This document shows positions 2,011-64,000 of a stretch of DNA of 64,000 nt, one piece after another. Position 1 is the first letter of the stretch; the number at the start of each line of letters is the position of its first letter. A program made the translations under genes and the position numbers. A model generated the notes under the pieces. The model made no database searches. It saw nothing but the letters and a program-made list of their open reading frames with translations, and was not told where the DNA came from. This DNA comes from Candidatus Magnetominusculus dajiuhuensis (GTDB taxonomy: Bacteria > Nitrospirota > Thermodesulfovibrionia > Thermodesulfovibrionales > Magnetobacteriaceae), in contig JADFXP010000005.1 of the NCBI GenBank assembly GCA_015233465.1, positions 62,001 to 126,000 of the forward strand, written 5' to 3'.

Positions 2011-2065
2011 ATAATATATTTAAAACTTTTCTGATGCTATGTAAACCGAGAAGTTATTGACCTAT

Positions 2066-2212
2066 ATGAAAACACATTATGAAGTATTTTATGATATTAT
2101 TATTGAAGCGTTAGATGAGGCTGAATTAGCAAACGCCATTATTGACGGCAGGAAAGATGATTTTGTAAGCGTTGAAGAAATATTTTCTATTTTGGACAGG
2201 AATAGTCTGTGA
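2066..2212 (+). CDS. Small antitoxin-like protein
   Basis: A 48-aa ORF from ATG 2066. The C-terminal sequence DGRKDDFVSVEEIFSIL resembles the tail of RelB/Phd-type antitoxins, which often end in a G-R/K-x-x-F-V-S/T-x-E-E motif. No toxin follows; the gene leads into the repeat-filled gap. It may be an orphan antitoxin or a remnant. No clear ribosome binding site is seen, so expression is uncertain. Confidence 0.4.
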   Translation: MKTHYEVFYDIIIEALDEAELANAIIDGRKDDFVSVEEIFSILDRNSL

Positions 2213-2787
2213 CTTGCTCCTAAATGTTTCAACATTTAAAGTTTAATGTTTCTTAATATTGATAAGATTAGGCTTAAAAAATGGTCAAACAGCAAATGAA
2301 ATGTAAAAATGAAAAAAGGATAACCTAATTTTGAAATTTGAATTTATCTGTATAAAAAGCTGATTATGTATAGTTGATTTTTGAAATGAAAATTTAACTT
2401 GGACAGCAGTGGTCACAGACTTGCTCCCGCGTCAGAGTCTGAGACCCTGTCCATTGTGACGCCTGCTCCCGCACGAATAACCAAAGAACTTGTAGGGGTA
2501 ACCCTTGTGGTTACCCTTTGGGCAGGCACAAGGCCTGCCCCTACGAAACCATCAAGATTAAGTATCCCTTTTTTACCTTGGACAGTTGTGGTTTTCTTAA
2601 AGCCCCAGAAGAATATAAAGATAAAATAGATAATCCTCATGGTTTAAAATCTACTCTTATGAAGACATTTGTGACGAAATTAAAGACGGCACAAGTCCAT
2701 AATTCATCACCCTTACGTTATTAAATTGCCTTTACAGCAATATTTTGATATAATAATCAGAGAGATTCAGCACTATAGGGAGGAAGT
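2213..2787 (+). other. 575-nt gap without an intact gene: repeats and degenerate coding fragments
   Basis: The stretch holds a structured segment at about 2396-2465 with nested pairs GGACAG/CTGTCC and GTCACA/TGTGAC and a TCAGAGTCTGA palindrome. A double family B repeat follows at 2492-2544. Then comes a possible coding remnant at 2640-2700 whose one frame reads FKIYSYEDICDEIKDGTSP before a stop. The apparent ORFs of 68-76 aa here translate the palindromes and are not credible genes. Confidence 0.6.
2492..2544 (+). repeat. Family B palindromic repeat, double (head to head)
   Basis: GTAGGGGTAACC-CTTGT-GGTTACCC is joined by TTT to an inverted second unit, GGGCAGGC-ACAAG-GCCTGCCCCTAC. Each unit is a perfect 7-8 bp stem with a 5-nt loop, and the outer GTAGGGG/CCCCTAC ends also pair. 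The same family occurs at 4198, 17439, 23191, 25331 and 29736. Confidence 0.9.
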
Positions 2788-3087
2788 ATGTTTGGGGAAT
2801 TTAGAAGAATAACATTTGACTCTAACATTATGGGAGGACAGGCTTGTATAAGAGGAATGAGAATTCCAGTTTCCTTAGTAATTAATCTTGTGGCAAATGC
2901 GATGACTACTGAAGAAATTATAAAAGAGTACCCTGACCTTGAACCAGAAGATATTAAAGAAGCGCTATATTACGCTTCTTGGCTTGCTATAGATTCACAC
3001 TTTGAAGAAACCATGCTTCAAACTATTACTAACTTACAAGATGGCAATATTAAATGGCATACTTACGATGAAACATTTTCTGATTGA
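2788..3087 (+). CDS. DUF433 domain protein (antitoxin-like)
   Basis: A 99-aa DUF433 protein with the family signature near the N-terminus (ITFDSNIMGGQACIRGMRIPV) followed by a helical region with the usual EEIIKEYPDLEPEDIKEALYYA segment. DUF433 proteins have a homeodomain-like/VapB-like fold and are normally paired with a DUF5615 PIN-like toxin. No partner follows here; the next gene is a small membrane protein on the other strand. The start is well supported by GGGAGGAAGT directly before ATG 2788. Confidence 0.85.
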   Translation: MFGEFRRITFDSNIMGGQACIRGMRIPVSLVINLVANAMTTEEIIKEYPDLEPEDIKEALYYASWLAIDSHFEETMLQTITNLQDGNIKWHTYDETFSD

Positions 3088-9307: not shown

Positions 9308-10822
9308 ATGGACACTACTCAAATAATATCAAGTTTAATAAATCTTTTTAGGACATTACTGCCTAATGTACTGTCAAAAAAAGATTCGCAGCGTAAAGAT
9401 TTACAGATTAATCCAGTGGCATTTAATGTAACAGAAGAACTTTGGGGGATACTAATGTCTAAGGCAAAGACCAATATTCCTCTTAAAGATGCCTTAAATG
9501 AAATGGCGGTGCTGCCTGATGATGACGATGTGGCTGCATCACTAAGGCTTCAATTTAAAAAATTACTAGCTAAAGATGAATCGCTGCAAGATATAATTGG
9601 AGACAAATTAAATGAAGTCATAAATTCTGGGTTTCAATTAAATTATAGCATTGGGTTATCTTCTTTTAAATGGCTTGAGGTGCTGGATAAAAATGATGCC
9701 ACATTAAAACGCCTTGAGATGATACGTCAATTTAGATGCGGAGTTCCACTTCATCAAATCACTGAGGCATTTCATACTGATACTGAATATGTTCATAGAG
9801 TTAATGCAGCATTTTCTCATAGCGGGACTCAAGGAGTTATTTCTGGATCAAATGTCAGACACTGGCTTGATACGCTTGACCCAAATGATAATATTTTAAG
9901 AAGACTTGACATGATTGGCCAGTTAAAATCAGGAACACCTCCAGAGATAATTGCAAGGCAATATAATACTCTGCCTGATTATGTTCACAGAATTGCAAGC
10001 GCGTTTGATAAATATGGAGCAGTGGGGATTTTAACTGAAGAGGATTTTAGAAAATACCGCACGATCTATCCAGATACCATTAGAATATGCTCATTTAATC
10101 TGCATGGAACTCATGATTCAAATGATTATTACAGATTCAAACGTATTGCGCATGAATTAAGCGCCTATGAACCAGAGATATGTTCGTTTCAAGAGGTAAT
10201 CAGCGGTTATGGAATAGAAGAGACAAGCGCTCAGATTGCCACATGGCTGACAAATATCACAGGGTATCATTATCGCACATTTTTTGGTCATTGTCATTTA
10301 TTTATGGACAAATATCCAGAAGGAATAGCGGTAAGCGCCAAGTATCAATTAAAAAATACTAATCTTATTGATCTTAATAAGGGATTAAGAGGAGAAGTAC
10401 ATCCGCTAATGGAGAGATTTGCAGCAGTATCAGAGGTAGAGATTCGCGGTAAAAAGATAGTATTTGCATCAGTACATCTTGATCATTCAGAAGATGAAAG
10501 GGTAAGACCAGCCCAAGTAGAGAAACTTCATCATGAGATAAATCGAATTTATGGGAAAAACGATATATACTGCACGATATTAGCAGGGGATTTTAATGAC
10601 ATAGAAGACTCTAAGACTATTAATTATTTGGTAGAAAAAGGTTATAAAGACGCATACAGGGCTTGCAGTCCAAGCGGAGGTAATACCTATCCTTCACATA
10701 ATCCATATACAAGGATTGATTATATAATGGTCAAAGGGGATGTAAAGTTTCTTCAGACTTCATTGATATTAAAAGATCCTTCTCTAAGTGATCATGTTGG
10801 GATACTTGCAGTGATTGAATAG
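9308..10822 (+). CDS. Endonuclease/exonuclease/phosphatase (EEP) protein with two N-terminal HTH-like repeats
   Basis: A 504-aa protein. Residues about 126-182 and 188-245 are two copies of a homeodomain-like helix-turn-helix unit (LKRLEMIRQFRCGVPLHQI... and LRRLDMIGQLKSGTPPEII..., each with a YVHRxxxAF third helix). Residues 258-504 are an EEP hydrolase (DNase I/Mg-dependent phosphodiesterase fold) with the whole catalytic set: FNLHG, SFQEV, SVHLDH, AGDFND, RIDYIM and SDHVG. It probably acts on nucleic acid or a phosphodiester; the repeats suggest DNA binding. It heads the + strand accessory island. No signal peptide is seen. Start from AGGAGG before ATG 9308. Confidence 0.8.
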   Translation: MDTTQIISSLINLFRTLLPNVLSKKDSQRKDLQINPVAFNVTEELWGILMSKAKTNIPLKDALNEMAVLPDDDDVAASLRLQFKKLLAKDESLQDIIGDKLNEVINSGFQLNYSIGLSSFKWLEVLDKNDATLKRLEMIRQFRCGVPLHQITEAFHTDTEYVHRVNAAFSHSGTQGVISGSNVRHWLDTLDPNDNILRRLDMIGQLKSGTPPEIIARQYNTLPDYVHRIASAFDKYGAVGILTEEDFRKYRTIYPDTIRICSFNLHGTHDSNDYYRFKRIAHELSAYEPEICSFQEVISGYGIEETSAQIATWLTNITGYHYRTFFGHCHLFMDKYPEGIAVSAKYQLKNTNLIDLNKGLRGEVHPLMERFAAVSEVEIRGKKIVFASVHLDHSEDERVRPAQVEKLHHEINRIYGKNDIYCTILAGDFNDIEDSKTINYLVEKGYKDAYRACSPSGGNTYPSHNPYTRIDYIMVKGDVKFLQTSLILKDPSLSDHVGILAVIE

Positions 10823-10833
10823 GGGTTAATTAT

Positions 10834-11094
10834 GTGGTAGGATTGTTGAAATATACGATAATGTTCAAACCACTATCAACAAGGCAATTAAAGACTTTTT
10901 CTTCAAATGAGAAAGTTCGTATAATGGTGAAAATTGAAGCACTAGCAGATAACCTCTCTGGCGATATAAAAAGGCTCACGAATTTTATGCCTGAATACCG
11001 TTTAAAAGTTGGCGATTATCGGGTGCTGTTTTAAGTTGAAGCAAAAAAGGTGCTAATCTATTTTATAAAACATAGAAATGAGGCGTACCGATGA
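10834..11094 (+). pseudogene. RelE/ParE-family toxin, disrupted by a nonsense codon
   Basis: The frame reads a RelE-type toxin (MFKPLSTRQLKTF...EYRLKVGDYRVLF), hits TAA at 11032-11034, then continues in the same frame with VEAKKVLIYFIKHRNEAYR to TGA at 11092-11094. The missing residue is normally Glu in this family, so one GAA-to-TAA change explains the stop. The lost piece holds the C-terminal H-R-x-E-x-Y active-site strand. The true start may be GTG 10834 or ATG 10861. The partner antitoxin downstream is also broken. Confidence 0.75.
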
Positions 11095-11294: not shown

Positions 11295-11528
11295 ATGAGC
11301 AAAGATAAAAAATTATTACTCAAAATTTTACAAGGAGAGTCAAATTCAAATATTATTTTTTCCGAGTTATGCAGATTATTAATCAATCTTGGCTTTAAAG
11401 AAAGAATTAAAGGAAGTCATCATATTTATATTAAGGATGACGTGGAGGAAATATTAAACTTACAATCAGATAATTCAAAGGCAAAGACATATCAAGTTAA
11501 ACAAGTGCGCAATATTTATTATCTATAA
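11295..11528 (+). CDS. hicA: HicA-type mRNA interferase toxin
   Basis: A 77-aa protein related to HicA, a double-stranded-RNA-binding-like fold that cleaves mRNA. The core is FSELCRLLINLGFKERIKGSHHIYI, in which the GSHH histidine is the usual catalytic residue, followed by the strand and AKTYQVKQVR helix. It precedes hicB by 23 nt, the standard toxin-antitoxin order for this family. It looks intact, unlike the neighbouring RelE-type module. Confidence 0.85.
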   Translation: MSKDKKLLLKILQGESNSNIIFSELCRLLINLGFKERIKGSHHIYIKDDVEEILNLQSDNSKAKTYQVKQVRNIYYL

Positions 11529-11551
11529 ATATAACATGGGAGCAAATATTA

Positions 11552-11761
11552 ATGAATAGATATGAAATTATCATATACTGGAGTGAAGAAGATAAGGCAT
11601 TTATAGCAGAGGTTCCTGAGTTACCCGGATGTATTGCTGATGGCGTCAATTATCAAGAAGCTCTTAATAATATTGAAATAATCATTAAAGAATGGATAGA
11701 AACTGCAAGAGAATTAGGACGTGCAATTCCAAAACCTAAAGGTAGATTAATATTCGCATGA
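11552..11761 (+). CDS. hicB: HicB-type antitoxin
   Basis: A 69-aa protein with the partial RNase H-like fold of HicB: YEIIIYWSEEDKAFIAEVPELPGCIADGVNYQEALNNIEIIIKEWIETARELGRAIPKP. The PELPGC and EAL/W-I-E-T-A elements are characteristic. There is no C-terminal DNA-binding extension, so autoregulation may need the complex or may be absent. It follows hicA by 23 nt, and a family A repeat lies directly downstream. Confidence 0.9.
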   Translation: MNRYEIIIYWSEEDKAFIAEVPELPGCIADGVNYQEALNNIEIIIKEWIETARELGRAIPKPKGRLIFA

Positions 11762-11847: not shown

Positions 11848-13476
11848 ATGCCGCAAAAGACTGAAAATTTTGTTATGGCGTATAATTGGGATCATCATTG
11901 TCATGACCTAATAGAGTCATTAAAGGCCAATTTTTATCATATGCACAGGGAGTTAAATGAGCTGCCTCATGAAAAGGTCATTAATAAGATTTCTCTGCTC
12001 AATTATTTCAAAAAATTACATTACAATAAAGAACTTTATTTTAAGACGATAAAAGATATAGATGACCGTCAGTTTTCCATAAAGTCTCTTGGTTATAGAG
12101 GTTATGGCGTAAATATGGATTTATTAAACGCCCTTGACGGCTTGAAAACTGAACATGCAGGGCATATTTATTGGTTAATAGAAGAGGGATTTAAAAGACC
12201 TCTTGAACTTGTAAAAAAGAAGATATATATGCCAGTTGAATTGATAGAGAAGATGGATACAGGATATGTTGTATTTGAGCTTTGCAAGAAGATGGATCTT
12301 CTGCCTGAGGAACATATTCCAGAGCCTCCAAGGCCTGTAGAGCTAAATAATCTTGAGGAATATTACAATGTCATGGCAAGAAGCACGCCATGGAATGTAA
12401 ATACAGCGATATTTCAAAGGCTTTTTTTAAATTTGGGATGCGCCTCTATGACCATAATGAAAGGCACGGTTGGTCATGTAGATACACAAACGCCTCAGGA
12501 ATTAAAGATAATAGGCAATAGAAATTTTCTTATAATGTTCAAAGAGACCTTTGCAAATCTTCATCTGTTTACAGATATAAATCTTGACTTGTTAAAGACG
12601 ATTCATAAGATATTATCTAATGGGCTTGTGCCTCATGCAGGGAATTTTCGTCCTCATGACTTTCCAGATAGAAACGGAGTGACATTTGAAAATAATAATT
12701 TTGAAAGGGAGATAAATGACCTTGGGCATGTGTTATGGGAGACAGCGCAGAGTTTTAATCACCTTGATAATTTCGTATATAATATAGCTAGGGCATATTT
12801 TATGTTTATAGGTATACATCCATTTTGGGATTCAAATGGAAGGGTTGGAAAGTGTTTTGTCAATTATATGTTTCTCAAAAAAGGACTTCCGCCGATAAGT
12901 TTTCATAATACAACAGAGGTCTTGAGCCTTCCGCGATATGGCGGGACTATGGATGAGATGTATATCTATATAAAGACAAGGCTTTTAATGGCAGTTGAGG
13001 ATTATTATTATGAGAGAAGAAAACTTGAACTCTTTGATTTTATTGATAAACAGGTCTATAATGTTTCATTTGACTCAGGATTTTATTTCAGACAGATAGA
13101 CGATAATCCGCAGAAGATTGAGTTGAATTTTCAGATTTTCTTACTTAGTTGGGACAATCCATTGTTTAACCAACTGCTTGATCAATGCAGGGTAGTAGTA
13201 GGAGAAGAGCATTACGCAAAGAGCCTGATATTATACTGTGGATTCAGCCATTCAAGACATGGAGAATGGCAGCATGTATTTACTATAAAGGGTGATTATC
13301 ATATTGAAGAGAGAACTTGTGAGATAGGCGCAAGGTTATTTGATGTAGATCTAATTATTGAATTAAAGGATTATCATTATAATTACAATTATTTTTCATG
13401 TTCAGTGGTTACTAATGACGGGTCAATGATTTATAATAATAAGGGGTTGAATTATTCGTATCAGATTGAGAGGTAG
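11848..13476 (+). CDS. Fic domain protein with a variant active-site motif
   Basis: A 542-aa protein with a central Fic fold (about 245-375). The catalytic loop is HPFWDSNGRVGK at residues 324-335; the canonical form is HxFx(D/E)GNGRxxR, so here G becomes S and the last Arg becomes Lys. The target-docking flap (GNFRPHDF, about 265-275) is present. The N-terminal 240 residues are helical with two similar YWLIEEGFKRPLELV-type segments, and a 150-residue C-terminal domain is unassigned. Fic proteins usually transfer AMP to protein hydroxyls. No inhibitory S/TxxxE(G/N) helix was recognised. Starts after AGGGAG at ATG 11848. Confidence 0.8.
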   Translation: MPQKTENFVMAYNWDHHCHDLIESLKANFYHMHRELNELPHEKVINKISLLNYFKKLHYNKELYFKTIKDIDDRQFSIKSLGYRGYGVNMDLLNALDGLKTEHAGHIYWLIEEGFKRPLELVKKKIYMPVELIEKMDTGYVVFELCKKMDLLPEEHIPEPPRPVELNNLEEYYNVMARSTPWNVNTAIFQRLFLNLGCASMTIMKGTVGHVDTQTPQELKIIGNRNFLIMFKETFANLHLFTDINLDLLKTIHKILSNGLVPHAGNFRPHDFPDRNGVTFENNNFEREINDLGHVLWETAQSFNHLDNFVYNIARAYFMFIGIHPFWDSNGRVGKCFVNYMFLKKGLPPISFHNTTEVLSLPRYGGTMDEMYIYIKTRLLMAVEDYYYERRKLELFDFIDKQVYNVSFDSGFYFRQIDDNPQKIELNFQIFLLSWDNPLFNQLLDQCRVVVGEEHYAKSLILYCGFSHSRHGEWQHVFTIKGDYHIEERTCEIGARLFDVDLIIELKDYHYNYNYFSCSVVTNDGSMIYNNKGLNYSYQIER

Positions 13477-13497
13477 GGGGATTAAGGAGAATTTGTG

Positions 13498-14001
13498 ATG
13501 ATTTCTATAACTAAACCTATGGATACAGCATTATCAAATGAAATTGATAAATTCAAAAAATCAATAGATAAATTATTTGGAAATATCAAACTCTGGTTAT
13601 CTGATACTGATCTTTTAATTTCAGAAGGTACTACACTTATATCTGAAGAAGATATTGGTACGTATGAAGTACCAATTCTAATAATAGATGATAAAAATGG
13701 GAAAAAGATAGCAACTATAAAACCTATTGCCTCAAAGGTAATTCTAACAAAGTGGAGGATTGATGTTATTGGGAAATTCGATAAGGAGATAATTGTTTTT
13801 ATGGATAAGGGGGGTCCTTCATATGAATCAAAGACAGTATTGAGTAATGGAAAAGTTGAATTTAAAACTCGATATTATTATAAAGGAGTTAAAAAAGGCG
13901 GATGGTATTGGATAGAAGATAGCAGGAGGGGAAGGGCTCTTATATTAAATAGGAAGCTTTTCTTAGACATTTTAGAGTTGGTTAGCGATTATGAGCAGTG
14001 A
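13498..14001 (+). CDS. Unknown protein, upstream partner of a HEPN-type gene
   Basis: A 167-aa acidic/mixed protein with no recognised family. The middle has alternating strands (YEVPILIIDDKNGKKIATIKPIASKVILTKWRIDVIG, read in pieces), suggesting a beta-rich core, and the end carries a GGWYWIEDSRRGRALILN segment before a helical tail. A GTG at 13495 is also in frame, but the AAGGAG at 13484-13489 is better spaced for ATG 13498. Its last 11 nt overlap the next gene, so both are made together. The pairing recalls toxin-antitoxin or effector-immunity layouts, which is inference. Confidence 0.75.
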   Translation: MISITKPMDTALSNEIDKFKKSIDKLFGNIKLWLSDTDLLISEGTTLISEEDIGTYEVPILIIDDKNGKKIATIKPIASKVILTKWRIDVIGKFDKEIIVFMDKGGPSYESKTVLSNGKVEFKTRYYYKGVKKGGWYWIEDSRRGRALILNRKLFLDILELVSDYEQ

Positions 14002-14557
14002 CATTATTATTGACTTTGATAATATTTTAGAGTTATATGAATATAATAAAGATTGTTATAAAATTATAAGAAACATACAAGAAATAAATGAGCATAAGTT
14101 ATTTGATAATACTAAATTTATTGATTCCGATAAAGTAGAGATTGAGATACTATTAGAAAAAACTCAAAAAGAAGCTGATGATTATTATATGCTTTACTTA
14201 TGGGTAACATTTGAGCGATTTATAATTAATTTTCTCTCAATAAAAGGTGAAAAACTTATTGATGATAAGCCTGAATTATTTGCTGATAATTTTTATTGTA
14301 AATTTAAGGAGAATATTGAGAGATGGCGGTTTGATGATGTTTTAGATTTATTTGATGAAGTTCTTGATAAAAGTTTAATAGATAATGTTAAAAAAATCAA
14401 AAGATATAGAGATTGGATAGGTCATAGAAATAAAAAGAAAAAGAAACCAATAGCTTTTAACCCTTATGAGGTTTATAATATTTTAATCGCTATGGTTAAA
14501 GAAATCCAACAAGAGGCGATGTTGGGGGTTGCACCCCCAAACCCCGCAAGGCATTGA
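13991..14557 (+). CDS. HEPN-like protein (candidate RNase)
   Basis: A 188-aa helical protein. A helix with YMLYLWVTFERFIINFLS (about 66-83) is followed by helix pairs and a HEPN-type Rx4H motif, R140-D-W-I-G-H145, in the context KKIKRYRDWIGHRNK. This matches metal-independent RNases of the HEPN superfamily (RiboL-PSP/MAE_28990-like layouts). Residues 178-188 (LGVAPPNPARH) are encoded by a family A repeat, so the natural C-terminus has been replaced or extended. It overlaps the upstream unknown gene by 11 nt. The family call is based on the motif and helical pattern only. Confidence 0.6.
   Translation: MSSDIIIDFDNILELYEYNKDCYKIIRNIQEINEHKLFDNTKFIDSDKVEIEILLEKTQKEADDYYMLYLWVTFERFIINFLSIKGEKLIDDKPELFADNFYCKFKENIERWRFDDVLDLFDEVLDKSLIDNVKKIKRYRDWIGHRNKKKKKPIAFNPYEVYNILIAMVKEIQQEAMLGVAPPNPARH
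14522..14555 (+). repeat. Family A-related repeat forming a gene end
   Basis: TTGGGGGTTGCACCCCCAAA followed by CCCCGCAAGGCATT. The first part is a perfect hairpin. It encodes the last 11 residues and leads into the stop of the HEPN-like gene. The same sequence, with one change, occurs on the other strand at 63880-63914 inside the end of rsmH. Confidence 0.85.
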
Positions 14558-14571
14558 GGTGAACATAAACT

Positions 14572-16188
14572 ATGAAAAAAGAATTTGCTGAGAGTTTTGC
14601 TAGTCCTTCATATAAATGGATAGGAAATCACAGGACAGTAAAAAATATGCAAAACTGGCAGATATCTAATTATCCGGGCTGCATTGGATTTGCCTTCCAA
14701 GAACATTCATCTGGTATGTCTTTAAAGGTTGTATTAAAGGCTTATAGAGATGACGGAACAAGAGAAAACTTTATAATAAATACCTATCACTGCGGTGATT
14801 TTGGCAATGGGTATCAAAAATGGCAGACCCATCAACTCCCTCTTTTTCCATATGAAAGCTGTCACGGCAAGATTACAAATGTCAAATTTTCATATATAGT
14901 TCATAAAGACGGCAGATCAATACCTTCACAATATAATTATAAATTCGCATCTCTGCCAGAGTTTGAAAGAGGTAACATAGGAAACGATGATTTTCATGAT
15001 TCGTATTTCAAAAATGAAAACAACTATGTAACAAACGAAACAAACGGAATTGAAGTGCAGGATGCCCTTAATAGGATAAATAAAACATCAGGCGACCTGC
15101 CGATTCAACCGTTTTTCACAAGAGGCAACAGATGGGATCCATCTCACCCTGTAAATGAAATCCATCGTCAGATTGACTGGGTAATTGAAAAAAAGAAACA
15201 GAGCCCGCAAAAGAGACGCTATATACATATGGCAATATTTGATATTGATAACTATTATATTGCTAAACACCTGATCTATGCAAAAGAATGCGGAGTTGAG
15301 GTAGAGTGCTTTGCTGATTGGGCTGCAGTAAGCTCTATGAACTGCACAGAACATGTGGCAATGATGAGACGCGCAGGCATTGCCATATATGGAGTGGTTA
15401 GAAATACCCCTGGAGACCCAACCGGCGGAATATCCAGCATGCACACAAAGATTATTATCTTTGACGGCGAGATAGTTCACTCAAGTTCTTATAATCTGCA
15501 TTTTCATCTATGGGGCGGAAACTGGGAAAACGGTATATCTTATTATTCACAAGATTATGTTCCTATTTATGAAAATATCTATAATGCAATCAGGGGAGGC
15601 GTTATTGCGCCTGTTAATATAAAGCCTTATGACAGATATAATCTATACTACAGCTTTGGAAGTAATAATACACAAACAAGAAACTTTTATAGACCTCAGG
15701 ATGCTATAATTACAGAAATAAATAATGCTAAGTATACAATAATAATTTGTATGTTTGAACTTGGACATTTAAGCGGATGTTCAGAGCAGGATAATCATGA
15801 AACAGACGTTGTAAGCGCTATAATAAATGCAAGAAACCGCGGTATTAATGTCAAAGTCATACTAAATGGAATGATAAATCATACAGGAGACCTGCCTGAT
15901 GCAAAGGATATATGGAAATGGCGGCCGCTTAAAGATCCAGTCAGGAGATTGAAAGAGGAATGGATAGACCTTAATTTTGTGTATTATTGGGAGAGTATTT
16001 ATTCTCCGATACATCATAAATTTGCAGTAATTGATAATGATACTGTAATAACAGAGTCTTATAATTGGTATATTACAAGTTTATATTCAGATGAGACGCT
16101 TGCAGTTATCAGAGATAAAAAAACAGCTCAAGAATTCACTAATGAGGCATATAAGATTTTAGAGAGTTTCAGAATTGGCCATGATTAA
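14572..16188 (+). CDS. Phospholipase D-like protein with two HKD motifs
   Basis: A 538-aa protein. Residues 1-160 form an unassigned beta-rich domain (GMSLKVVLKAYRDDG..., INTYHCGDFGNG). Residues 175-535 carry two PLD modules with H291-x-K293-x4-D298 (MHTKIIIFDGE) and H481-x-K483-x4-D488 (HHKFAVIDND), each followed by the usual S/E-S-Y-N. PLD-fold enzymes cleave phosphodiesters in lipids or DNA; the neighbouring nuclease genes favour nucleic acid, but this is not shown. There is no signal peptide. It starts 14 nt after the HEPN-like gene, so it may be in the same transcript. Confidence 0.85.
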   Translation: MKKEFAESFASPSYKWIGNHRTVKNMQNWQISNYPGCIGFAFQEHSSGMSLKVVLKAYRDDGTRENFIINTYHCGDFGNGYQKWQTHQLPLFPYESCHGKITNVKFSYIVHKDGRSIPSQYNYKFASLPEFERGNIGNDDFHDSYFKNENNYVTNETNGIEVQDALNRINKTSGDLPIQPFFTRGNRWDPSHPVNEIHRQIDWVIEKKKQSPQKRRYIHMAIFDIDNYYIAKHLIYAKECGVEVECFADWAAVSSMNCTEHVAMMRRAGIAIYGVVRNTPGDPTGGISSMHTKIIIFDGEIVHSSSYNLHFHLWGGNWENGISYYSQDYVPIYENIYNAIRGGVIAPVNIKPYDRYNLYYSFGSNNTQTRNFYRPQDAIITEINNAKYTIIICMFELGHLSGCSEQDNHETDVVSAIINARNRGINVKVILNGMINHTGDLPDAKDIWKWRPLKDPVRRLKEEWIDLNFVYYWESIYSPIHHKFAVIDNDTVITESYNWYITSLYSDETLAVIRDKKTAQEFTNEAYKILESFRIGHD

Positions 16189-63866: not shown

Positions 63867-64000
63867 ATTCGTTCACCTTGATGCCTTGCGGGGTTTGGGG
63901 GTGCAACTCCCATCGTTCACCTGCCCTAAGCATTGCGCTTCGCGCTGATTTATTTCTTCTTATCTCTTCTAAGGTTGGACGCAGGGGCTTATCTGTTAAT
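63853..64000 (-). CDS. rsmH: 16S rRNA m4C1402 methyltransferase RsmH, C-terminal part
   Basis: The last 48 codons of RsmH (MraW) are in the window. The end LTDKPLRPTLEEIRRNKSAR, then SAMLRAGER, is the conserved C-terminal motif of the family. The following residues WELHPQTPQGI come from a family A-related repeat, and the frame ends KVNEYDKD with TGA at 63855-63853, inside ftsL. Relatives generally end soon after the LRVAE-like helix, so this tail is extra. The N-terminal SAM domain is outside. Confidence 0.9.
   Translation of the reverse strand, partial: LTDKPLRPTLEEIRRNKSARSAMLRAGERWELHPQTPQGIKVNEYDKD
63880..63914 (-). repeat. Family A-related repeat inside the rsmH end
   Basis: On the minus strand: ATGGGAGTTGCACCCCCAAA, then CCCCGCAAGGCATC. 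It matches 14522-14555 with one change in the hairpin arm. Here it is read in a different frame (ELHPQTPQGI) from the HEPN-like gene (GVAPPNPARH). Confidence 0.85.

Follow-up and report, generated by a model that had tools for sequence, protein, structure and literature searches.

A mobile gene pair, probably of toxin-antitoxin type, joins a predicted HEPN RNase to a partner from a new protein family

We describe a two-gene module from Candidatus Magnetominusculus dajiuhuensis and diverse other bacteria that is probably a mobile module of the toxin-antitoxin type, consisting of a candidate HEPN endoRNase (gene 2) and a putative protein antitoxin (gene 1). Both the toxin-antitoxin role of the pair and the toxicity of gene 2 are predicted. 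Toxin-antitoxin and defence systems built on HEPN RNases are very common. To our knowledge, only a handful of antitoxins have been described for HEPN toxins that stand alone: MNT, RnlB, a proposed ParA-like ATPase and the RNA in AbiF. A broader reading, which we put forward tentatively, is that gene 1 may found a new antitoxin superfamily of frataxin/Nqo15-like fold. In five or more bacterial phyla, this superfamily would partner several diverged subfamilies of HEPN RNases, neutralise them by a route unlike the AMPylation performed by MNT, and spread as a self-contained coupled cassette between the genes of working operons. If true, this would add a second protein antitoxin family of wide occurrence, one that has a fold of its own and does without the AMPylation site, and HEPN toxins would have been tamed more than once. 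While two-gene HEPN toxins are already known, the gene 1 family and these HEPN subfamilies are new in the sense that neither the four libraries searched nor the papers found contain them.

Organisation of the gene pair

The window, meaning the whole stretch of 64,000 nucleotides that was analysed, carries the pair on the + strand. Gene 1 (13498..14001, +; 167 aa) starts with ATG at 13498, with an alternative in-frame GTG at 13495, and is preceded by a Shine-Dalgarno-like AAGGAG read directly at 13484..13489 (+). Gene 2 (13991..14557, +; 188 aa) starts with an ATG that lies within the last codons of gene 1, giving an overlap of 11 nt (13991..14001, +). No Shine-Dalgarno of its own was seen for gene 2 in the window, and translational coupling fits this arrangement. 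The coordinates, translations and 11-nt overlap given in the first-pass annotation of this DNA were all correct on re-reading, as was the location of the pair between a Fic gene and a PLD gene. The Fic gene (11848..13476, +) ends about 20 nt upstream and the PLD-family gene (14572..16188, +) begins 14 nt downstream, all on the + strand; these two genes are the left and right halves of an older operon and lie outside the module.

Conservation and distribution

Single-sequence scans of the genome and viral collections found no relatives of the two proteins, and an alignment query was needed to recover them. We found 46 non-redundant gene 1 ORFs, 38 of them in intact pairs. In 38/38 intact non-redundant loci gene 1 immediately precedes gene 2, and the genes overlap in 33 of these, usually by 4-14 nt (most often 4, 8, 11 or 14 nt). 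The first-pass annotation had suspected an undescribed pair, and homologues of the two genes are indeed neighbours in every intact locus. This recurrence in 38 loci, with invariant R and H residues at a fixed spacing, indicates that the pairing is more than chance. The pairwise distances of gene 1 and gene 2 are correlated (r = 0.88, and 0.70 in a thinned set), with 0/10,000 permutations giving a value as high.

The pair is present in Nitrospirota, Pseudomonadota, Desulfobacterota and two other MAG lineages, as well as on viral contigs and plasmids. The alignment query recovered 22 loci from the genome collection (Burkholderiaceae, Desulfobacterota, Nitrospirota, a Hydrogenedentota MAG and a Desulfurobacterium MAG) and one additional locus from a viral contig; plasmids of Cupriavidus and Burkholderia glumae also carry it. 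Its occurrence is patchy, about 2-4% of genomes in two groups. Among 299 Burkholderiaceae genomes, the gene 2 profile matched 13 and the gene 1 profile 14; apart from a single gene 1 fragment, the two sets of matches coincide in position. The pair is present in 7 of 396 Nitrospirota genomes. The tree of the 38 pairs comprises several deep clades, most of which contain Nitrospirota members.

The gene 1 profile also detected divergent relatives in other Nitrospirota, where the next gene was mostly missed by the gene 2 profile. These next genes encode small proteins with an R-x4-H motif (e.g., TFRHWYAHGR, GTRCDIAHGK and YWRCELAHGR). Additional divergent pairs were identified on a Klebsiella ColRNAI plasmid, in already-sampled genomes (L100, L101 and L102) and on three viral contigs, and hhalign links the outlying to the core sets for both proteins (99.4% and 99.6%). 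As judged from these sequences, the gene 1 family pairs with several divergent, predicted HEPN subfamilies. The Klebsiella quasipneumoniae ColRNAI plasmid is 4.65 kb long and the pair (L094:1800-2910) is its largest cargo; the same pair is found in a 3.7-kb record and within a 135-kb IncFIB plasmid. It had no DNA match in E. coli genomes, and we found no description of it in open-licence papers.

No third gene recurs around the pair at any locus examined, and many chromosomal copies stand alone amid housekeeping genes. Two diverged copies were observed in tandem on a single contig (L024:539-1614 and 2023-3028), and Desulfonema magnum has three copies. This distribution bears on whether the pair belongs to a conflict system at all. 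Regulators and rRNA-processing enzymes are known among HEPN proteins (PMC3710099), and in some genomes the pair lies within operons of ordinary genes, as might be expected of a housekeeping RNA-processing or regulatory pair that uses its HEPN domain in an MtlR-like or Las1-like manner. Patchy occurrence with neighbours that are unrelated each time, plasmid and viral copies, tandem copies on one contig, three copies in one genome and several decayed loci all argue against such a role, which we judge improbable.

Predicted HEPN fold and active site of gene 2

The AlphaFold model of gene 2, based on 24 sequences, is all-helical (pLDDT 88), with pLDDT dropping to about 50 at the C-terminus, where the last ~12 residues are poorly modelled. 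Using structural re-alignment against PDB, ranks 1-16 were all HEPN entries. The best match is HepT SO_3166 (Z 9.9, 3.6 A over 124 residues), a Z value that helical bundles can reach by chance; the other top HEPN matches include YutE, HI0074, YggD and Csm6, and Las1, Csx1 and Cas13b appear at lower ranks. Gene 2 members also match Pfam HEPN-clan models weakly (RiboL-PSP in 7/24, best 1e-4; MAE_28990, ApeA and Swt1). Because Foldseek alone gave no significant match for the gene 2 model, nor for the gene 1 model, the prediction that gene 2 is a HEPN protein draws on the consistency of the modelled fold with this list of structures, on the weak Pfam clan matches and, above all, on residue conservation.

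Across the non-redundant gene 2 homologues, only three columns never vary, those of E75, R140 and H145 (38/38 each). This invariance describes intact proteins, as loci with a truncated or frameshifted gene 2 were excluded from the 38-sequence alignment. In the window, the codon of E75, the acidic residue that never varies in the predicted active site, is at 14213..14215 (+), and the predicted catalytic motif R140-x4-H145 (RDWIGH) is at 14408..14425 (+), with R140 encoded by AGA (14408-14410) and H145 by CAT (14423-14425). The spacing between R and H is four residues in 38/38. The elements described for predicted HEPN RNase sites include a polar residue (N, D or H) after the R (PMC3710099), and in the 38 homologues this position is occupied by D (27), H (6), N (3) or C (2), thus by D, H or N in 36/38. 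The upstream acidic residue, typically within Ex3[KR], is represented by E75 in 38/38, but the exact Ex3[KR] spacing is lost and the local sequence is mostly FER. From the alignment, E75, R140 and H145 correspond to the three elements of the predicted HEPN RNase site.

The first-pass annotation had read R140-x4-H145 in a helical context typical of HEPN ribonucleases. Consistent with this, R140 and H145 end a long helix (127-145) in the model, the structure prediction contains the all-helical, two-hairpin HEPN core, and both residues are conserved throughout the intact homologues. Two other candidate relationships were rejected: the phmmer matches of gene 2 to designed PPR proteins cover a short repeat-like stretch (112-135), and DUF2989 (E 0.0055) was under the cut-off.

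Gene 1 and its relation to known HEPN partners

In the confident model of gene 1 (pLDDT 92), nine strands stand between an initial and a final helix. Among solved structures it comes nearest to Nqo15 of Thermus complex I (Z 8.2, 4.8 A over 115) and frataxin (Z 5.4), both marginal. Since gene 1 has no sequence similarity to Nqo15 or frataxin and the Z values are marginal, a function in iron metabolism or complex I is unsupported. No significant match to the model was found in a viral structure library. Gene 1 may be a stand-alone form of the beta-rich "MAE_18760-NTD1" domain listed in PMC3710099. The first-pass annotation could not place gene 1 in any family; it indeed has no family match, but rather than an isolated unknown it is a member of a large family that is also found beside divergent HEPN proteins. 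Its conserved polar positions are E50, R87 and D89, and W136 is invariant. We dropped the idea that the conserved SDYE tail of gene 1 plugs the active site and do not count this tail as evidence, because the overlapping ATG of gene 2 fixes much of it.

The closest solved folds to gene 2 are those of the type VII HEPN/MNT (HepT/MntA) systems, which likewise consist of two genes with a small Rx4H HEPN RNase following the antitoxin gene. In these, MntA AMPylates the tyrosine of RX4HXY (PMC7641770). Gene 1 differs in lacking both the MNT fold and the GSX10DXD partner motif, and 0/24 gene 1 members match nucleotidyltransferase models in a profile search; the HXY tyrosine is found in 0/38 gene 2 homologues. 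The usual HEPN partner, reported missing in the first-pass annotation, is thus absent by sequence and by fold, as is the target tyrosine. It is conceivable that gene 1 nevertheless acts as an enzyme and switches off the HEPN protein through a covalent modification, given its conserved polar residues and invariant W136 and given that the closest known HEPN pair works in this way (PMC7641770). The missing tyrosine, the different fold, the lack of a nucleotidyltransferase match, and the replacement of the near-invariant G of the GR-D motif by W in the window protein, which would be odd for an active-site motif, make this unlikely.

Comparison with other HEPN systems and databases

By sequence, the closest HEPN families are RiboL-PSP-HEPN (PF18735) and the MAE_28990/MAE_18760-like HEPN (PF18737), which members of the gene 2 family match weakly and below threshold. 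The window gene 2 itself has no match, the best members reach E 1e-4 and 1.6e-3, and members scanned singly stay below the curated cut-offs. HEPN proteins of the MAE_28990 type are partnered by ParB or ParA (PMC3710099), whereas a ParB/DUF262 partner is not recurrent beside our pair. Two genuine PF18737 loci in Nitrospirota showed a DUF262/ParB-like gene (labelled by eye) beside the HEPN gene and no homologue of gene 1, and from these two the idea that canonical MAE_28990 loci carry gene 1 was rejected. The ApeA-like HEPN family (PF18739) is matched weakly over the Rx4H helix (E 0.08), but ApeA is a single protein with an N-terminal beta domain of about 300 aa (PMC3710099), unlike the two genes and differently sized partner found here. 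RnlAB and LsoAB resemble the pair in that overlapping genes encode a HEPN RNase toxin and a small protein antitoxin; they differ in that the toxin gene comes first and the toxin has 357 aa. Similarity of RnlA and RnlB to the pair was not detected (hhalign probability about 0.1% each, against single sequences), a result compatible with a distant fold relation. The "double-ribonuclease" system of Acidovorax is BrnT/BrnA-like and has no relation to the pair.

Neither gene 1 nor gene 2 reached a cut-off in Pfam, NCBIfam (2026), PHROGs or PADLOC 2.0, and ten homologues had no meaningful match in PADLOC 2.0 (2023) or NCBIfam. Searches of PDB sequences with both profiles found no relative, and phage records contained no match to the pair. 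The homologues of both genes are annotated as "hypothetical protein" in public records. A HEPN protein with a frataxin-like partner was not found in open-licence papers, and an earlier description may exist.

These searches also touch on the possibility that the pair serves in abortive infection or defence, with gene 1 acting mainly as a sensor or targeting subunit that holds the HEPN RNase inactive until a phage product is bound, and not as a labile antitoxin. Such an arrangement was proposed for the N-terminal domains of HEPN Abi proteins (Anantharaman et al., PMC3710099), and it would suit the presence of the pair on viral contigs and near other toxin-antitoxin genes, here HicAB, as well as the well-folded globular model of gene 1, which differs from many labile type II antitoxins. 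As neither protein matches a PADLOC 2.0 model, no defence gene recurs beside the pair and many chromosomal copies are alone among housekeeping genes, we consider this role possible but somewhat doubtful.

Decayed loci and polarity of the pair

In five loci (L068, L078, L083, L097 and L098) gene 1 has its full length and gene 2 is broken, interrupted or missing, and in two (L069 and L099) both genes are damaged. The reverse was observed once, in L067, where gene 1 is split by an IS110-like element and gene 2 is intact. The direction of decay, 5:1, fits gene 2 as the toxic partner, albeit with small numbers (one-sided sign test about 0.11). The intact gene 2 of L067 may be silent, but a strict addiction pair would not predict this locus. 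Gene order alone is no proof of polarity, as the toxin gene comes first in RnlAB, and the roles could in principle be swapped, with gene 1 the toxin and the HEPN protein its antidote. The invariant RNase active site predicted in gene 2, the lack of a recognisable one in gene 1, and decay that mostly affects gene 2 render this very unlikely.

Empty sites in related genomes

Of 18 other genomes of the family, 14 have Fic and PLD side by side, 13 with 5-55 nt between them and one with 313 nt. In the window genome, the two genes are separated by 1,098 nt filled by the pair. The adjacency in these 14 relatives shows the pair to be an insertion of about 1.1 kb, which entered between Fic and PLD without harming either gene. 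In two sister-genus genomes, the pair instead lies between nuoE and nuoF, in gaps of 1,455 and 1,572 nt; in 11 relatives, the distance between these two genes is 9-186 nt. Such empty-site comparisons provide a clear example of a toxin-antitoxin-like cassette entering operons that stay unbroken. As the older operon received the pair as an insertion, the Fic and PLD neighbours are uninformative on its function. Both were rejected as functional partners: they are adjacent without the pair in relatives and do not recur beside it.

Proposed mode of action

The features of the pair resemble those of type II toxin-antitoxin systems: a compact unit with the predicted antitoxin gene first, genes in this order in 38/38 and overlapping in 33/38, and a patchy, mobile, plasmid-borne distribution. 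Antitoxin-first order is usual in type II pairs and in MNT-HEPN (PMC3710099). In the toxin-antitoxin reading that we favour, gene 2 would be a metal-independent HEPN endoribonuclease with E75, R140 and H145 as its active site, an activity suggested by the computed fold and invariance. In this genome, the pair is probably carried on the Fic/PLD operon transcript. Gene 1, the predicted protein antitoxin, would be made first from the shared message and coupled to gene 2 through the overlapping stop and start codons, and most likely binds the HEPN protein directly, covering its active site or dimer cleft. Loss, degradation or diversion of gene 1, upon plasmid loss, stress or phage infection, would free the HEPN RNase. 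By analogy with known HEPN toxins, the freed enzyme would then cut cellular RNA and stop growth. The module may serve to maintain plasmids or islands, or act in abortive infection. The window's own pair, those of the Burkholderiaceae and that of the 4.65-kb plasmid can be tested at once.

Neighbouring features of the window

The right end of the insertion coincides with a copy of a dispersed palindromic repeat (14522..14545, +), from which gene 2 takes its final ~12 residues, the poorly modelled ones. This repeat (RTTGGGGGYTGCACCCCCAAACCCCGCAAGGCATTAAGGTGAA, ~45 bp) has 12 copies in the genome at up to 3 mismatches, compared with 0 for a reversed control. It is often located just before start codons and has another copy in the window at 63897-63911 (-).

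The PLD protein is DrmC-like, with two HxKxxxxD motifs, and its gene and Fic make up a conserved unit of two adjacent genes. An intact HicA-HicB toxin-antitoxin pair (window 11295-11758) lies a short way upstream of Fic and is itself preceded by a short ORF of 66 aa (10834-11034) that by eye looks like a RelE/ParE fragment and has no Pfam match. Further upstream, at 9308-10822, the window encodes an endonuclease/exonuclease/phosphatase protein with an N-terminal helix-turn-helix-like region.
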